A stretch of 64,000 bases of DNA from Ignavibacteriae bacterium HGW-Ignavibacteriae-4. GTDB taxonomy: Bacteria; Bacteroidota; Ignavibacteria; Kapaibacteriales; UBA2268. The notes beneath the pieces are model-generated. The model was not told where the DNA came from, did not search any database, and was given only the letters and a program-made list of their open reading frames with translations. The stretch is from positions 1 through 64,000 of the forward strand of contig PGYR01000012.1 in assembly GCA_002839765.1 (NCBI GenBank), in the 5' to 3' direction. Position 1 is the first letter of the stretch; every line of letters begins with the position of its first letter. The position numbers and the translations under genes were made by a program. Below, one piece after another: positions 4,637 to 19,553 of the stretch.

Positions 4637-6109
4637 TTATTCGAAAGAAGCAAGGCGCATAATGATAAGGTCTTGTAGATTATTAATTTCAGTTTGTGGA
4701 GCTGTAAAATTATTGAAAAATAAATTTACAACGAAAGTATCACCACTTGCGGAAACAACATAGCCAGAAATATTAGAAACTCCATTCATAGATCCAGTTT
4801 TTGCGAAAACTCGGTTTTGTGCAATGGAGTTTTTCATTCTTCTCTCTAAAGTACCAGGTTTACCGGGCTGTGCCAGTGAATTTATAATAGACGACCTATA
4901 ATCTGAAGTGTAAATATAACGCAATAAATTAGTCATCAAATTTGGGGACAAATAGTCCAACCTAGAAAGTCCCGAACCATCAACTAGATTAAAGTCATCT
5001 TCTTCGTAGAAATTCTTAATGAATTTTTCGACTAATTTCACACCTGAAGAAAAGCTTCCATCGCCCCCATTCTCTTTGCCAATGGTTTTTAGCAATATCT
5101 CTGCCGTGAGATTATTACTTTTTCTATTCACGAATTCAATTATTTCTTCTAATGTTACAGATTGTTTGTCAAAAACTTGATTTATCTTGAAATAAACGGG
5201 AGTTTCGTTCCAATCATCAATATCTATCAACGCACCTTTGAATCTGATATTGAAATGACGTAGATGGTCACTGAAATTGCTGAGGAAATATAGTGTAGGG
5301 TTATCTATAGCTATTTCTTCAGAAATAGTATCTTTTTTCAAAGGGTCGAATGGCATACTGCCGAAAAACTCGAAGAAATTTGTCACGGCATCTCGTTCGA
5401 AAGAAACTTCATTTACACCTGATTCGGAACCTGTTTTCACATTATTCACAATACGAACAAAGTCCGAATTCGGGACTAACTTAATCTTAGTTATTTCGTT
5501 TCTCTTGTCTGCGGAAGTTATCATAGCAGTGATAGAATTATTGAATATATTCAGAGCACCGACTTGAGCAGAATATGAGTACTTCATATCGTCCCATGCC
5601 CAACCCGAAGGATAGTAAGAATCATCGAAATAATTGTCATCACCAATTATATTACCCCTTATTGATTTTATACCCAAACTATCTAACTTAGATACCCAAT
5701 CATCAAATATAATATTCTCAGTTTTGTAAAATTCAAGTGACAAAGTTGGATCGCCGAATCCCCTGATTATTAAGTTTCCTTTGAATTCCCCGTTTTCTTC
5801 AACATTACCATCTAAGTACAATTTGCTGTTATAAGTGAAGTTTTTTCCAAGATAATGAAGTGCTGCTGAAGTTGTTAACAGTTTAACAGTAGATGCAGGG
5901 ATGAAATTTTGCTGAGAATTGAGCGAGTAAACAGACGTGTTTCTGTCAATGGAATAGATGCTAATACCAACTTGTGTATTTTCTAGTTTCTTATTTCGCA
6001 GTAGCCCATCTATGTCTTTTGTTAGTGAATTATATTTATCAACGTTCGGTTTTGCGAACGTAAATGCACAAGCGCATAAAAAAACTATCAATAATCTAAT
6101 CATCATCAC
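4637..6109 (-). CDS. dacB: D-alanyl-D-alanine carboxypeptidase/endopeptidase, PBP4 type (peptidase S13)
   Basis: This 490-residue periplasmic penicillin-binding protein trims or cleaves peptidoglycan cross-links. A signal peptide (FLCACAFTFA) precedes the catalytic domain. The three active-site motifs are visible: SxxK as STVK (residues 73-76) in PASTVKLL, SxN as SNN in NRKSNNLTAE, and KTG in FAKTGSMNGVSN near the C-terminus. The large insertion between the first two motifs and the overall length fit class C PBP4 enzymes. Starts with several possible ATG codons (MMMIRLL); any of them leaves the signal peptide intact. Convergent and abutting with the FG-GAP gene, divergent from htpG. Confidence 0.93.
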   Translation of the reverse strand: MMMIRLLIVFLCACAFTFAKPNVDKYNSLTKDIDGLLRNKKLENTQVGISIYSIDRNTSVYSLNSQQNFIPASTVKLLTTSAALHYLGKNFTYNSKLYLDGNVEENGEFKGNLIIRGFGDPTLSLEFYKTENIIFDDWVSKLDSLGIKSIRGNIIGDDNYFDDSYYPSGWAWDDMKYSYSAQVGALNIFNNSITAMITSADKRNEITKIKLVPNSDFVRIVNNVKTGSESGVNEVSFERDAVTNFFEFFGSMPFDPLKKDTISEEIAIDNPTLYFLSNFSDHLRHFNIRFKGALIDIDDWNETPVYFKINQVFDKQSVTLEEIIEFVNRKSNNLTAEILLKTIGKENGGDGSFSSGVKLVEKFIKNFYEEDDFNLVDGSGLSRLDYLSPNLMTNLLRYIYTSDYRSSIINSLAQPGKPGTLERRMKNSIAQNRVFAKTGSMNGVSNISGYVVSASGDTFVVNLFFNNFTAPQTEINNLQDLIIMRLASFE

Positions 6110-8073: not shown

Positions 8074-9129
8074 ATGAAGTTATCGTCATTTAAATATGAT
8101 TTACCTAAAAAATCAATAGCAAAGTTTCCTGCCGATCCACGGGATTCATCTAAAATGTTAGTAATGGACAGAGAGAGTGGCAAGATAAAAGATAAGATGT
8201 TCACTGATATACTAAGCGAATTAAGCAAGGGAGACTGCCTAGTATTAAATGATACTAAGGTGTTCCCAGCTAGATTATTTGGCAACAAAGAAAAGACTAA
8301 TGCGAAAATAGAAGTCCTATTACTTAGAGAACTAAAAAGCGAAGAAAGACTTTGGGACGTAATGGTAGAGCCAGCTAGAAAAGTTAGAATCGGGAATAAA
8401 ATATATTTCGATGATAATAAATTCTACTGCGAAGTTATAGATAATACAACTTCTAGAGGAAGAACAGTACGTTTCTCTTACGATGGTAATCTATTCGATG
8501 AAATCGAAAAGATTGGTGAAATGCCAATCCCTGATTACATAGACAGAGATACTGCTCAGATTGACAAAGCAACTTATCAAACAGTATTTTGTAATGACGA
8601 ACATTTGCAATCAATCGCTCCTCCTTCTGCTGGATTACATTTCACTGAAGAAATGTTAAAGAAAATAGAAGATAAAGGCGTTAGAATTGCTTACGTTAAC
8701 CTTACAATTGGTCAAGGTGTATTCGAAACTATTGATGTTGAAGATTTGACTAAACACAGAATGTATAGCGAATATTTCGAAATACCAAGAGCTTCTGCTG
8801 AGTTAATTAACAAGTCATTGAAATCGAACAAACGTATATTTGGTGTTGGTACTAGTGTTGTTAGAGCTTTGGAAGCATCTGTATTGACTACAGGAGCAGT
8901 AAAGCCAAACAAAGGTTGGACTGATAAATTTATCTATCCACAATACGAATTTCAAATTGTTACTGACTTTTTGACTAATTTCCACTATCCTGCATCTCCA
9001 CAAATACTTGTGTCTTGTGCGTTTGGTGGTAAAAAGCAAACATTCGAAGCATACAAACACGCTATTAAAAATGATTATAGACTTTTAGCTTACGGTGATG
9101 CTATATTATATAGAACTCCTAAGAAATAA
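8074..9129 (+). CDS. queA: S-adenosylmethionine:tRNA ribosyltransferase-isomerase QueA
   Basis: This enzyme transfers and isomerises the ribosyl part of SAM onto preQ1 in tRNA to give epoxyqueuosine. The protein has the family landmarks YDLPKKSIAKFPADPRDSSKM at the N-terminus, LNDTKVFPARLFG (about 52-64), and SIAPPSAGLHFTEEM with a downstream VGTSVVRALEA. The length of about 351 residues is usual. The ORF track begins at TTG 8071, but the ATG at 8074 is preferred because it gives the typical MKLSSFKYDLP start. queC, another queuosine gene, lies elsewhere in the window at 54403. A hairpin terminator follows at 9155-9191. Confidence 0.96.
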   Translation: MKLSSFKYDLPKKSIAKFPADPRDSSKMLVMDRESGKIKDKMFTDILSELSKGDCLVLNDTKVFPARLFGNKEKTNAKIEVLLLRELKSEERLWDVMVEPARKVRIGNKIYFDDNKFYCEVIDNTTSRGRTVRFSYDGNLFDEIEKIGEMPIPDYIDRDTAQIDKATYQTVFCNDEHLQSIAPPSAGLHFTEEMLKKIEDKGVRIAYVNLTIGQGVFETIDVEDLTKHRMYSEYFEIPRASAELINKSLKSNKRIFGVGTSVVRALEASVLTTGAVKPNKGWTDKFIYPQYEFQIVTDFLTNFHYPASPQILVSCAFGGKKQTFEAYKHAIKNDYRLLAYGDAILYRTPKK

Positions 9130-14000: not shown

Positions 14001-14342
14001 GTTAGAAACCAGTGTAGAGATATATTGCTCGTGCTGAGCGGCGTCGAAATGCAAACGTCTCCTAATCCCCCAAACTCTTCACTCTGAACGCAGTGAAGAG
14101 TCCAGGGGAACTCCGCAGGAGTTCAATAATAATAGGACTAAAGTCCAAGTGGTCTGGGATTGATTTCATATCCGTTGGCTAAAGCCAACGGCAATACACT
14201 GAACTGTGATTCTTCGGAGAGTTAAGGTCACCTAAAATAGCATCTAATCACCCCCCCTGAAAAAAACTTCGTCATTTGTGAGACGTTTTTACTGTTCAAG
14301 TGTCTTTATATATATAGCTGCACCAATTTTGAGAAAACAAAT
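14001..14342. repeat. Extragenic hairpin-array repeat, copy B (402-bp gene-free gap)
   Basis: The gap between the DUF6580 terminator and the next gene holds a chain of perfect hairpins: ACTCTTCACT/AGTGAAGAGT (14074-14101), GAACTCC-GCA-GGAGTTC (14108-14124), GGACT-AA-AGTCC (14135-14146) and CCGTTGGCT-AA-AGCCAACGG (14172-14191). Positions 14055-14146 are an inverted relative of copy A at 1-113. GTGCTGAGCGGCGTC at 14031-14045 recurs with one base change near 61665. No ORF is supported here, and no clear promoter was found for the following gene. Confidence 0.75.
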
Positions 14343-15543: not shown

Positions 15544-17256
15544 CTACTCAAGTTTGAGGCGGTATAGATTGTATAAATCAGTTGCGTATAAGTAGCCGTT
15601 GTCAATATCTATTCTGTTAATTTCTTTTGTAATTGGTAATTTGTCAGAGATAGAAACTATCTTTTCTTTGTTAATAAGCTTCTTAATTTTATTATCCCTT
15701 TTATCTATAAAGTAGATATAGTTGTTATGCATAATAGTATGTTGAGACAAATAAGATCCGATTAATTCATACTTATTATTCTTTACATCTAACCAATAAA
15801 TAGAGTCATTTGTGAATGAGTACGCTGATGTATCTTGAAAGAATAACTCATGTCCATTTTCAATAACAACATCCCAATCTGGATATTCCATATCAGATAG
15901 TGGAATATTAATTTTAAAATTATTCCAGCTCTTTCCAAAATCATAACTATAATTAAACTCTATATTTTCATTACCCTTATCTCGATAACTTCTATTCTTT
16001 TCATATACAACGCCGTTACAATATTCTAAAGGATTATCGGTAAATATTGAGTCAATGACAATTAGTTTTTTTCTATCTATTTCCCATATCCAATCTCTTG
16101 TTTTTACTACACATTTTTTCTTATCTGAATAAGATATTATTAAATTATCAAAATCTTTTGATGGGTAAATAAGCTGTAAATTCTTAATAATATTATCTTT
16201 GTTATCAAACAATAATAGGTAATACCCATTATTGTTTTTTGCAAAATCATAATAGAATTCCCATAATTTTCGTTTCTTTTTAATTAGAACTTGTTTACCT
16301 ACTGGATTCAAACAATAGAAAGTAAACATTAACTCCTTACTCTCCAATGAATAATCAATTTGAAAATTATTATTATAATTATTTGTTTTCAATATCCCAT
16401 TATCTACATTAAAATACCAAAGTTGATTTAGATATGAATTTGAGAAATTTACTGAGGTCTTAAAAAGTGAATCTATATTATAAAAATTATAACTAAACTC
16501 ACTCGAAACAAATAGAAAATCATTTAGAATATATAGTTTACTATCTGCTAGTACTTTTTTATTTAATCTTATTTCACCTTCAATTTCAAGTGAGTCTAAG
16601 TGAACTCTTTGAACAGTTAATATATTCTGAAGACAGTATGAATGATACTCCCTTATTAAATAGAGAATATCATTTTTCTGAAAAGCATGTTTGATGATAT
16701 CAATTCTATAATTCATCCTTATAGAATCTATTATAAATTTATTGCTTTTATCTGATTTCACATTATTATTAATTAGATAAAGCGTACTATCTCTATAAAA
16801 ATAAAAGGAATCGTCTAATGAATTTATTATTGATATATTATTATCCTCTAATACTAAACTATCGGTGATGATATTTTTTCTAATATCATTATAAGTTGAA
16901 AATTTAATCGTGCTATCATTTCTTTTAAAAAAAATAGCTCCGCTTTTTCCGAAGTTAACCTTATCATAGTATTTATTTAGATAAGAAAATTCCTTCTCAA
17001 AGTCTCTTACACTATCAATGGTATATCTCTTAAATGATTCTGAGTTGGTATAAGATGTATCTAATTCTTCCCAATCAATTAGATTACTTGAGCTTATATA
17101 TCTACTATCCCATTTTTGTAAGACATAATTACCATCTATAAAATGAGCATTGTAAATTTGCCCATTATTCAAATTAGGTAAGTCAACCTTCTCCCATTCC
17201 GCAGATAGCAGGATAGTTGGGAGCAGTATTAGCAGTATTTGTAAGTAGTATTTCAT
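15544..17256 (-). CDS. Exported protein of unknown function, BNR/propeller-like
   Basis: This 570-residue protein has a signal peptide (YLQILLILLPTILLSAEW). No family was recognised. The sequence is rich in K, N, D and Y, with alternating strands and one BNR-like stretch (YSYDFGKSWNNF, about residue 448 on), so a beta-propeller is plausible. Unlike its secreted neighbours it shows no T9SS C-terminal domain and ends in LYRLKLE. Its first 14 coding bases and its upstream region form one copy of a 139-bp direct repeat whose other copy lies at 17850-17988. Confidence 0.65.
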   Translation of the reverse strand: MKYYLQILLILLPTILLSAEWEKVDLPNLNNGQIYNAHFIDGNYVLQKWDSRYISSSNLIDWEELDTSYTNSESFKRYTIDSVRDFEKEFSYLNKYYDKVNFGKSGAIFFKRNDSTIKFSTYNDIRKNIITDSLVLEDNNISIINSLDDSFYFYRDSTLYLINNNVKSDKSNKFIIDSIRMNYRIDIIKHAFQKNDILYLIREYHSYCLQNILTVQRVHLDSLEIEGEIRLNKKVLADSKLYILNDFLFVSSEFSYNFYNIDSLFKTSVNFSNSYLNQLWYFNVDNGILKTNNYNNNFQIDYSLESKELMFTFYCLNPVGKQVLIKKKRKLWEFYYDFAKNNNGYYLLLFDNKDNIIKNLQLIYPSKDFDNLIISYSDKKKCVVKTRDWIWEIDRKKLIVIDSIFTDNPLEYCNGVVYEKNRSYRDKGNENIEFNYSYDFGKSWNNFKINIPLSDMEYPDWDVVIENGHELFFQDTSAYSFTNDSIYWLDVKNNKYELIGSYLSQHTIMHNNYIYFIDKRDNKIKKLINKEKIVSISDKLPITKEINRIDIDNGYLYATDLYNLYRLKLE

Positions 17257-17381
17257 ATTTAATTGTAAATATAAGGAATTGAGAAATAGCTTACAAGTAT
17301 ATTATTTACTGGTTATCTACTACCTTTACACCCAAACTTATAACCCTAATTCGTAACTATCTTTCAGATTTTATTATATTG
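17243..17381. repeat. 139-bp direct repeat, copy 1
   Basis: Identical to 17850-17988 except for two visible substitutions (CATATTT/CATAGTT and CTACTACC/CTACTTCC), at a constant offset of 607 bp with no gaps. This copy includes the first 14 bases of the minus-strand 570-aa gene and its upstream region. That region contains a possible minus-strand promoter (CTTG, 20-bp spacer, TATATTTA at 17297-17266). Confidence 0.95.
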
Positions 17382-17412
17382 GGTATAAATAAATGTTATA
17401 GCAAATTTTAAA

Positions 17413-17820
17413 ATGACTGAAAGACAACACAATATATCCTTTATTATATTTTTAATTGGATGCATCGGTTTGATATTAACTCTTGACGCACCAACTAGGA
17501 ACTATATCCCAGTAGTTTGGGGTATTTTAGGGTTTGGACTTCACGGATTTTGGACGTGGAAAACATGGATAGACTTGAGTAAATTACTAATTGTAGAACA
17601 TCAGGATAAATTAGATGAACTAAATATTAGCTTTATCGACAATCGATTTAAGACAACAGTTGATATGTTCGCACTTTTGAAAGATTTGAAGAAAATTGAA
17701 AAAATCTCAACCGACATTAAAACAAGACTTTCTTTTTTTAGAACGTATATTCGTCTAACTGCTATAGCCTTCCCTATGTTTGCAATTCTCGGTTTGATGA
17801 CAGTAATTATGACTTGGTGA
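17413..17820 (+). CDS. Small membrane protein of unknown function
   Basis: This 135-residue protein has hydrophobic segments at about 8-24, 32-48 and 110-133. Between them is a charged helical stretch (KLLIVEHQDKLDEL to KTRLSFFRT) likely on the cytoplasmic side. The N-terminal paired segments loosely recall 2TM-type domains of Bacteroidota, but I do not assign a family. The gene sits exactly between two 139-bp direct repeats, with 31 bp before it and 29 bp after it, so it may have arrived with one of the repeat copies or could be lost by recombination between them. Start ATG at 17413. Confidence 0.65.
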   Translation: MTERQHNISFIIFLIGCIGLILTLDAPTRNYIPVVWGILGFGLHGFWTWKTWIDLSKLLIVEHQDKLDELNISFIDNRFKTTVDMFALLKDLKKIEKISTDIKTRLSFFRTYIRLTAIAFPMFAILGLMTVIMTW

Positions 17821-17849
17821 AAGTGAAAATAATAAAATACTAATCACAA

Positions 17850-17988
17850 AAGTAGTATTTCATAGTTAATTGTAAATATAAGGAATTGAGAAATAGCTTA
17901 CAAGTATATTATTTACTGGTTATCTACTTCCTTTACACCCAAACTTATAACCCTAATTCGTAACTATCTTTCAGATTTTATTATATTG
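17850..17988. repeat. 139-bp direct repeat, copy 2
   Basis: Second copy of 17243-17381, with 137 of 139 positions identical by eye. It starts with the same 14 bases that encode the first codons of the 570-aa protein on the minus strand. Here they run into unrelated sequence, leaving a cut-off gene start. The copy is followed by 65 bp leading to accC. Confidence 0.95.
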
Positions 17989-18053: not shown

Positions 18054-19553
18054 ATGTTTAAAAAAATATTAGTTGCGAATAGAGGCGAGATAGCTATCAG
18101 AGTGATGAACGCCGCTCGTGAGTTGGGCATAGAGACTTATGCCGTTTACCACGAAGTTGATAAACACTCGCTGCATACTATATCTGCTGATTATGCCCTA
18201 GAGATAGTTGGCGACACTCCTAAGCAGGCATATTTGGATGCGGCTCAGATTATCAGCTTGGCTATAGAGCATGATTGCGAGGCGATTCACCCCGGTTATG
18301 GTTTTTTGTCAGAGAATGCGAAGTTTAGCAAAGCCTGCAAAGATGCCGAGATTAAATTCATCGGCCCAAATGAATATGCTATAGAAGTAATGGGTAATAA
18401 AACTGCTGCTCGTGAGCTAATGCAAAAAGCTGGTGTTCCAATAGTACCCGGTACTAAAGAGCGAATCACGGACCTCGATTTAGCAAAAGAAATAGCTAAT
18501 GAAATTGGCTACCCTATATTGCTAAAAGCCGCTGCTGGCGGTGGTGGTAAGGGTATGCGTAAAGTTGAAAAAGAATCTGAGTTCGTAGATAGCTATGACG
18601 CTGCACAAAGGGAAGCACGTAATGCATTCGGTGATGACACTATCTATATGGAAAAATATATTGTCAATCCTAAGCATATCGAAATACAAATATTAGCCGA
18701 TGAACACGGCAATTGCGTCCATCTGGCAGAGCGAGATTGCTCTATACAAAGACGACACCAAAAAGTAATAGAAGAAGCTCCTTCGACTGTATTGGACGAA
18801 ACACTAAGAGCAGCAATGGGCAAAGTAGCCGTTGATGCTGCTCAAGCTTGTCATTACGTTAATGCTGGTACTATCGAGTTTTTACTTGATAAAGATAAGA
18901 ACTTTTATTTCCTAGAGATGAACACAAGATTGCAAGTAGAGCACCCAGTTTCTGAGTTGATAACGGGTGTGGATTTGGCAAAAGAACAAATAAAAGTAGC
19001 TGCTGGATACCCACTAACTTTCGAGCAAGAGGATATTGTAGTCTCAGGTCATGCTATCGAGGCACGTATTTACGCAGAAGATGCTACTAATAACTTCATG
19101 CCTGATATAGGTACTATTTCTTATCTCAGAAATCCCGATGGGATAGGCGTGAGAGTAGATGGAGGGATAGAGCGAGGCGATGAAGTGAGTATAAACTTCG
19201 ACCCTATGTTAGCTAAGCTAATTGTTTTCGGTCAAGATAGAGCCGAAGCAATAGAGAAAATGGACGCGGCACTTTCTTCTTATAAAGTAGTAGGTACAAG
19301 AACTGTAATTCCATTTTTGAAAGCGGTTATGCAATCAGATAAGTTCCGTAATCATTACTTCGATACAGGATTTATAGAATCAGACTTCGATTTCAAAGTA
19401 TTAGACGAAATGAAAAGTAAAGATGAGGAATACGCTGCTGCAATTGCGGCTTTTGCATATAACCTTAATCGAAATACGAAAAAAGTGACACCAGTTAATC
19501 CAAAGCCAAGCGATTGGAAATCTAAAAGACTAAATAACATGAGGGAGTTCTAA
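18054..19553 (+). CDS. accC: Acetyl-/propionyl-CoA carboxylase biotin carboxylase subunit
   Basis: This 499-residue cytoplasmic enzyme carboxylates the biotin of a carrier protein using ATP and bicarbonate. Visible landmarks are FKKILVANRGEIAIRVMNAA at the N-terminus, AIHPGYGFLSENA (about 78-90), the ATP-grasp glycine loop AAAGGGGKGMRK (about 159-170), HIEIQILADEHGN, and EMNTRLQVEHPVSEL with the catalytic region. It is slightly longer than AccC of about 450 residues because of a C-terminal tail of ~45 residues. The carrier gene starts 1 bp after its stop. Because a methylmalonyl-CoA mutase is in the window, the pair could serve propionyl-CoA carboxylase; the carboxyltransferase that would decide this is not here. 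Confidence 0.95.
   Translation: MFKKILVANRGEIAIRVMNAARELGIETYAVYHEVDKHSLHTISADYALEIVGDTPKQAYLDAAQIISLAIEHDCEAIHPGYGFLSENAKFSKACKDAEIKFIGPNEYAIEVMGNKTAARELMQKAGVPIVPGTKERITDLDLAKEIANEIGYPILLKAAAGGGGKGMRKVEKESEFVDSYDAAQREARNAFGDDTIYMEKYIVNPKHIEIQILADEHGNCVHLAERDCSIQRRHQKVIEEAPSTVLDETLRAAMGKVAVDAAQACHYVNAGTIEFLLDKDKNFYFLEMNTRLQVEHPVSELITGVDLAKEQIKVAAGYPLTFEQEDIVVSGHAIEARIYAEDATNNFMPDIGTISYLRNPDGIGVRVDGGIERGDEVSINFDPMLAKLIVFGQDRAEAIEKMDAALSSYKVVGTRTVIPFLKAVMQSDKFRNHYFDTGFIESDFDFKVLDEMKSKDEEYAAAIAAFAYNLNRNTKKVTPVNPKPSDWKSKRLNNMREF

Follow-up and report, generated by a model that had tools for sequence, protein, structure and literature searches.

A small gene between two near-identical repeats

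The locus analysed here lies in a 64,000-nucleotide stretch (the window) of the genome of Ignavibacteriae bacterium HGW-Ignavibacteriae-4. On its left, a gene on the minus strand encodes a 570-aa protein with a signal-peptide-like N-terminus (15544–17256), and on its right, a gene on the plus strand encodes a biotin carboxylase of the accC type (18054–19553). Between them lie two direct copies of a 139-bp sequence, R: R1 (17243–17381), which overlaps the start of the 570-aa gene, and R2 (17850–17988), which precedes accC. The two copies enclose a non-repeated interior of 468 bp (17382–17849, read on the plus strand) with 30.8% G+C, compared with 34.5% for the window. A single open reading frame (ORF) of 135 aa (17413–17820, plus strand) occupies this interior. 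An earlier, sequence-only reading of the window had described both the repeats and the intervening ORF, and our repeat search returned the same coordinates.

R1 and R2 constitute the longest direct repeat that the search found in the window. They are identical at 137 of 139 positions (98.6%; 99% in the repeat search) with an offset of 607 bp, differ at repeat positions 16 (T/G) and 80 (A/T), and share uninterrupted matches of 63 and 59 bp. A chance match is excluded for the second copy (blastn E ~1e-65). A search of the whole 3.36-Mb assembly for further copies, suggested by the sequence-only reading as a check, returned R1 and R2 only. Both copies start with AAGTAGTATTTCAT, which corresponds in reverse complement to the initial 14 bases of the 570-aa gene. 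As had been claimed, this shared gene start is cut off in the second copy: only R1 continues into the 570-aa gene, and the left end of R2 carries the 14-base start of a 570-family gene as an orphan. R1 consists of these 14 bases and the upstream region of the 570-aa gene, followed by the accC upstream region in truncated form, which here precedes the 135-aa ORF. R2 continues rightward in an unbroken run into the accC leader, like the single R of the related genome G003 described below.

The position of R suggests that it acts as an intergenic control region between the divergently transcribed 570-type gene and accC. Its last 30 bp, CGTAACTATCTTTCAGATTTTATTATATTG, which end in TATATTG, represent a possible promoter (17352–17381 in R1 and 17959–17988 in R2, upstream of accC; both on the plus strand). 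This motif precedes accC in all four genomes compared, with one mismatch in G003. In this genome, TATATTG shows moderate enrichment upstream of genes, with 51 forward versus 27 reverse occurrences in 80-bp upstream regions. Because R is duplicated, the 570-aa gene and accC each retain an upstream region, and the ORF gets one of the accC type. Weak DNA matches to the accC leader in other genera were discarded, as those checked were not accC leaders. No Rfam families or tRNAs were found within the window. Elsewhere in the window, positions 1–52 and 14095–14146 belong to a dispersed repeat (GGACTTTAGTCC...) as arms of 52 nt each, which are 92% complementary; G003 also has this repeat at the corresponding place.

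The most that can be said of the 135-aa product is that it is a predicted membrane protein with hydrophobic helices at both ends, two at the N-terminus and one at the C-terminus. Family matches were all sub-threshold, with STM3941 (E = 0.0066) reaching 16.4 bits against a curated cut-off of 40 and 8xMP (E = 0.029) reaching 14.6 bits against 30. Single-sequence folding gave three long helices at low confidence (pLDDT 67); Foldseek matches of this model were meaningless (E ≥ 3), and no solved structure matched the product in sequence. The ORF had no restriction or methylase match. Confident homologues were found neither in genome contigs beyond those of the related genome G001 nor in viral contigs or plasmids, and 396 genomes of the phylum yielded matches near chance only. 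Among 53 other genomes of the family, G001 was the only carrier, and its junction sequences on either side are those of the window.

The site in three congeners and the exchanged tract

The locus was compared in three congeners, G001, G002 and G003. In G003, accC is immediately preceded by one R (L015, about 8335–8471), and the interior with its ORF is lacking. To the left of this R lies a stop-containing remnant of a 570-type gene start, ATGAAATACTGCTAA, so that the old succession of 570-type gene, R and accC can still be read. G003 thereby presents the expected empty site; since the left neighbouring gene has decayed there, the site is not an untouched one. Its single R could also represent a secondary loss through recombination between R1 and R2. 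G002, which likewise lacks the interior, retains the last part of R alone, joined to a decayed C-terminal region of the 570 family.

G001 contains the interior and both R1–ORF–R2 junctions, with sequences as in the window. The ORF is split in this genome: contig C257, which carries the left junction, ends inside it, and contig C143, which carries the right junction, begins within it; the overlap of the two contigs is 5 bases. The two contigs belong to one deposited metagenome-assembled genome (MAG) and have low k-mer coverage. Because the ORF is divided over two such contigs, we only infer the repeat–ORF–repeat adjacency in G001.

The 570-aa family (window 15544–17256; L014 3–1049 and 1070–2728; L022 1–588) is lineage-specific and variable. 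The protein in the window shares 30–39% amino acid identity with tandem paralogues in G001, namely 30% with the 570-type neighbour and 39% with its tandem paralogue. The G001 paralogues keep conserved first and last parts, and G002 and G003 have decayed remnants.

A tract running from R1 into R2 (17349–17914, plus strand) shows 4 differences in 566 positions between the window and G001 (99.3% identity), two of them in the ORF itself. The accC gene beside this tract is 84.4% identical between the two genomes (15.6% different). The binomial P for this difference in divergence is ~1e-35, a rough value that treats sites as independent. The presence of a 99.3% tract beside an 84% accC indicates that the module crossed between the two lineages recently. 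Of the two origins offered by the sequence-only reading, insertion of the ORF together with a repeat agrees with the comparison: G003 has a single R without the ORF, and across species the block with the ORF reaches 99.3% identity. The other, loss of a second 570-family gene body, is a less likely alternative, and to the left of R2 nothing is similar to that gene apart from the 14 bases.

The same reading had called the duplication recent, and this did not hold as stated. G001 has the same layout with copies that are only about 85% alike overall, which means that the duplication is not necessarily recent. By repeat position, the G001 copies are 77% identical over 1–76 and 88% over 77–109, and their last 30 positions are identical. 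The sequence-only reading had named diverged copies in a two-repeat layout shared by all relatives as the mark of an old and stable structure; G001 has such a layout, and G003 has a single R. The first ~65 positions of both window copies match R2 of G001, not its R1. The near-identity of R1 and R2 in the window may come from later homogenisation, by gene conversion or re-formation, in a layout that is perhaps older.

In a simple account, the tract would have been transferred first, and gene conversion between R1 and R2 would have followed in the lineage of the window. In G001, R1 looks native up to ~position 106 and R2 from ~position 66, and the overlapping stretches differ. Because the exchange points differ between the two repeats, one donor circle and one crossover do not fit; the pattern requires two or more recombination events, which leaves their order uncertain.

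Origin of the module

The arrangement is best, and probably correctly, explained by insertion of the ORF with a copy of R, later transfer between species and homogenisation of R1 and R2. The ancestral order would have been the minus-strand 570-family gene, R and the plus-strand accC. An incoming fragment with the 135-aa gene beside a copy of R, most likely acquired by DNA uptake, would have been joined by homologous recombination in R at one end and illegitimate joining at the other. The joining would have duplicated R, leaving both neighbours with an intact upstream region and supplying the new gene with an accC-type upstream region from R1. The module would later have passed between species of the genus via homologous recombination, and in this genome gene conversion, or loss followed by regain, would have evened out the differences between R1 and R2. 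If the two repeats recombined with each other, the empty site would be recreated and 607 bp freed. RecA-mediated deletion as a 607-bp unit or circle could occur and is mechanistically reasonable given repeats of 139 bp. Genes for ComEC and DprA are present in the genome, and their presence permits competence without showing it. Both are widespread and say little by themselves.

The structure of the accC locus matches the known 'insertion with long target duplication', of which it is a further, well-documented instance. The original description concerned restriction-modification genes of Helicobacter pylori (Nobusato et al. 2000, as recounted in PMC1643837, PMC3154945 and PMC4978471). As in the insertions recounted there, one relative has the gene and another lacks it, the filled site is flanked by a long direct duplication, and the duplicated flank is single in the empty site (here that of G003, with its decayed left neighbour). 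Unlike the restriction-modification cargo of those accounts, which is usual and not required, the cargo here is an uncharacterised membrane protein. Beyond the H. pylori cases as recounted, a sharp-edged tract of exchange between species is visible here. Homology-facilitated illegitimate recombination, known from Acinetobacter, Streptococcus and Pseudomonas (PMC5361080, PMC3240628), combines a homologous with an illegitimate end and could produce an arrangement of this kind in a single step, with no need for a transposase or integrase; its action at this locus is suggested by the structure only.

The wzy locus of Salmonella Typhimurium DT8 is closely parallel in function. Its 113-bp direct repeats undergo excision with formation of a circle, and the gene is regained from a neighbour strain; RecA was also considered by the authors (PMC12074656). 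In both cases, an accessory membrane-protein gene lies in an intergenic position next to a housekeeping gene (thrS in Salmonella, accC at the present locus), the direct repeats are of similar length, and a single repeat is found where the gene is absent. Excision, circle and re-acquisition were shown for wzy, whereas at the present locus excision is a possibility.

Features of integron cassettes and transposons were absent. No integron attC-like site or cassette array was seen, with core boxes judged by eye; R occurs just twice and is the resident accC upstream region. The module had no transposase match, as would mark an insertion sequence or transposon, and occupies a single locus in the assembly. 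There was no terminal inverted repeat at the module beyond an AT-rich 12/13 match, and no integrase or recombinase within it, its sole gene being the 135-aa ORF; for an integrase-dependent element of the IME or satellite type, an enzyme acting in trans is conceivable. The assembly search revealed no multicopy family of the module.

Other histories could in principle lead to the same arrangement. Tandem duplication of the 570-family gene with R, followed by replacement of the second gene body by the 135-aa gene, would make R2 a relic. The gene start in R2 that leads nowhere fits this history, as do the tandem 570-family paralogues at the G001 locus. We nonetheless regard it as unlikely, given that 17821–17849 is unlike the 570-aa gene beyond the 14 bases and that no R lies between the tandem paralogues of G001. 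The module might instead be a tiny mobile cassette, a 607-bp circle of ORF and R moved by a site-specific recombinase acting in trans, with R as its att site. Such a cassette would have direct repeats at both ends and could appear near-identical in two species, and the 113-bp repeats around the Salmonella wzy gene behave in this way by a mechanism that is unknown (PMC12074656). The lack of any other R in the genome and of a recombinase in the module makes this improbable, as do the different positions of the G001 exchange points in R1 and R2 and the repeats of the other bracketed loci described below, which share no evident common sequence by eye.

The age of the repeats bears on a further history, a recent Campbell-type integration of the 607-bp circle by homologous recombination, without gene conversion, in which the copies would be alike because they are new. 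Two mismatches in 139 positions are a rate similar to that of the inter-species block; however, both junctions already exist in G001 with diverged repeats, and we hold this history to be quite improbable. An assembly or strain-mixture artefact might be suspected in genomes that are both in many contigs, one of them (G001) a low-coverage metagenome assembly. Yet the 570-family gene–R1–ORF and ORF–R2–accC junctions are both present again in another species, in a MAG that was deposited separately, and two sites tell R1 from R2. The assembly error that the sequence-only reading had allowed for is thus unlikely, and an artefact of either kind would be very surprising.

Other bracketed loci and the meaning of the probable insertion

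A scan for bracketed units covered ~2.2 Mb of the 3.36-Mb assembly. On contig G000:C45, a PEP-synthase-like gene lies between 161-bp repeats (L099 3306–3466 and 5931–6091; 98.1% identity) whose sequence derives from the 3′ end of an RNA methyltransferase gene. At this site, G003 and G001 carry one repeat copy and lack the PEP-synthase-like gene. The site is a second filled/empty pair, similar in form to the accC locus, and speaks in favour of the explanation given for the latter. On contig G000:C86, a ParE-type toxin gene and a small upstream ORF lie between 91-bp repeats (L139 6214–6304 and 6810–6900; 96.7%) that duplicate the end of an outer-membrane efflux gene. This toxin-antitoxin pair is absent at this place in G002 and G003 and is present in G001 at 81%, where no second repeat is visible before the contig end; the locus represents a partial parallel only.

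Other candidates were rejected. A 120-bp repeat around a lipoprotein-like gene (G000:C83) proved to be a spaced duplication, with the G003 and G002 matches running through the gene, and two other repeat pairs, in L049, were hairpin-rich intergenic repeats. The scan also recorded 180-bp repeats (96.7%) around DctM-transporter genes on G000:C37 (L091 1509–1688 and 6264–6442), whose gene content is unlike the rest and may be contamination. The 4833-bp contig G000:C31 (L085) has identical 79-bp ends (1–79 and 4755–4833), is possibly circular or an assembly loop, and contains one open frame that matches IgGFc_binding (PF17517).

We consider it doubtful that the genus has a recurrent route by which small cargo is inserted beside resident genes with a target duplication of 90–160 bp and without an integrase. 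On this same tentative reading, its cargo would include the membrane protein, the PEP-synthase-like gene and possibly the ParE-type toxin-antitoxin pair. If the route were real, neighbours would stay intact and cargo would be removable by recombination between the repeats, so that genes would be gained and lost as cassettes.

The accC locus also cautions that near-identity of flanking repeats need not signal a recent event, since in a sister species this layout occurs with repeats that have diverged. It offers a clear case of how a small accessory gene may enter a chromosome without a transposase or integrase of its own, leaving its neighbours unbroken.
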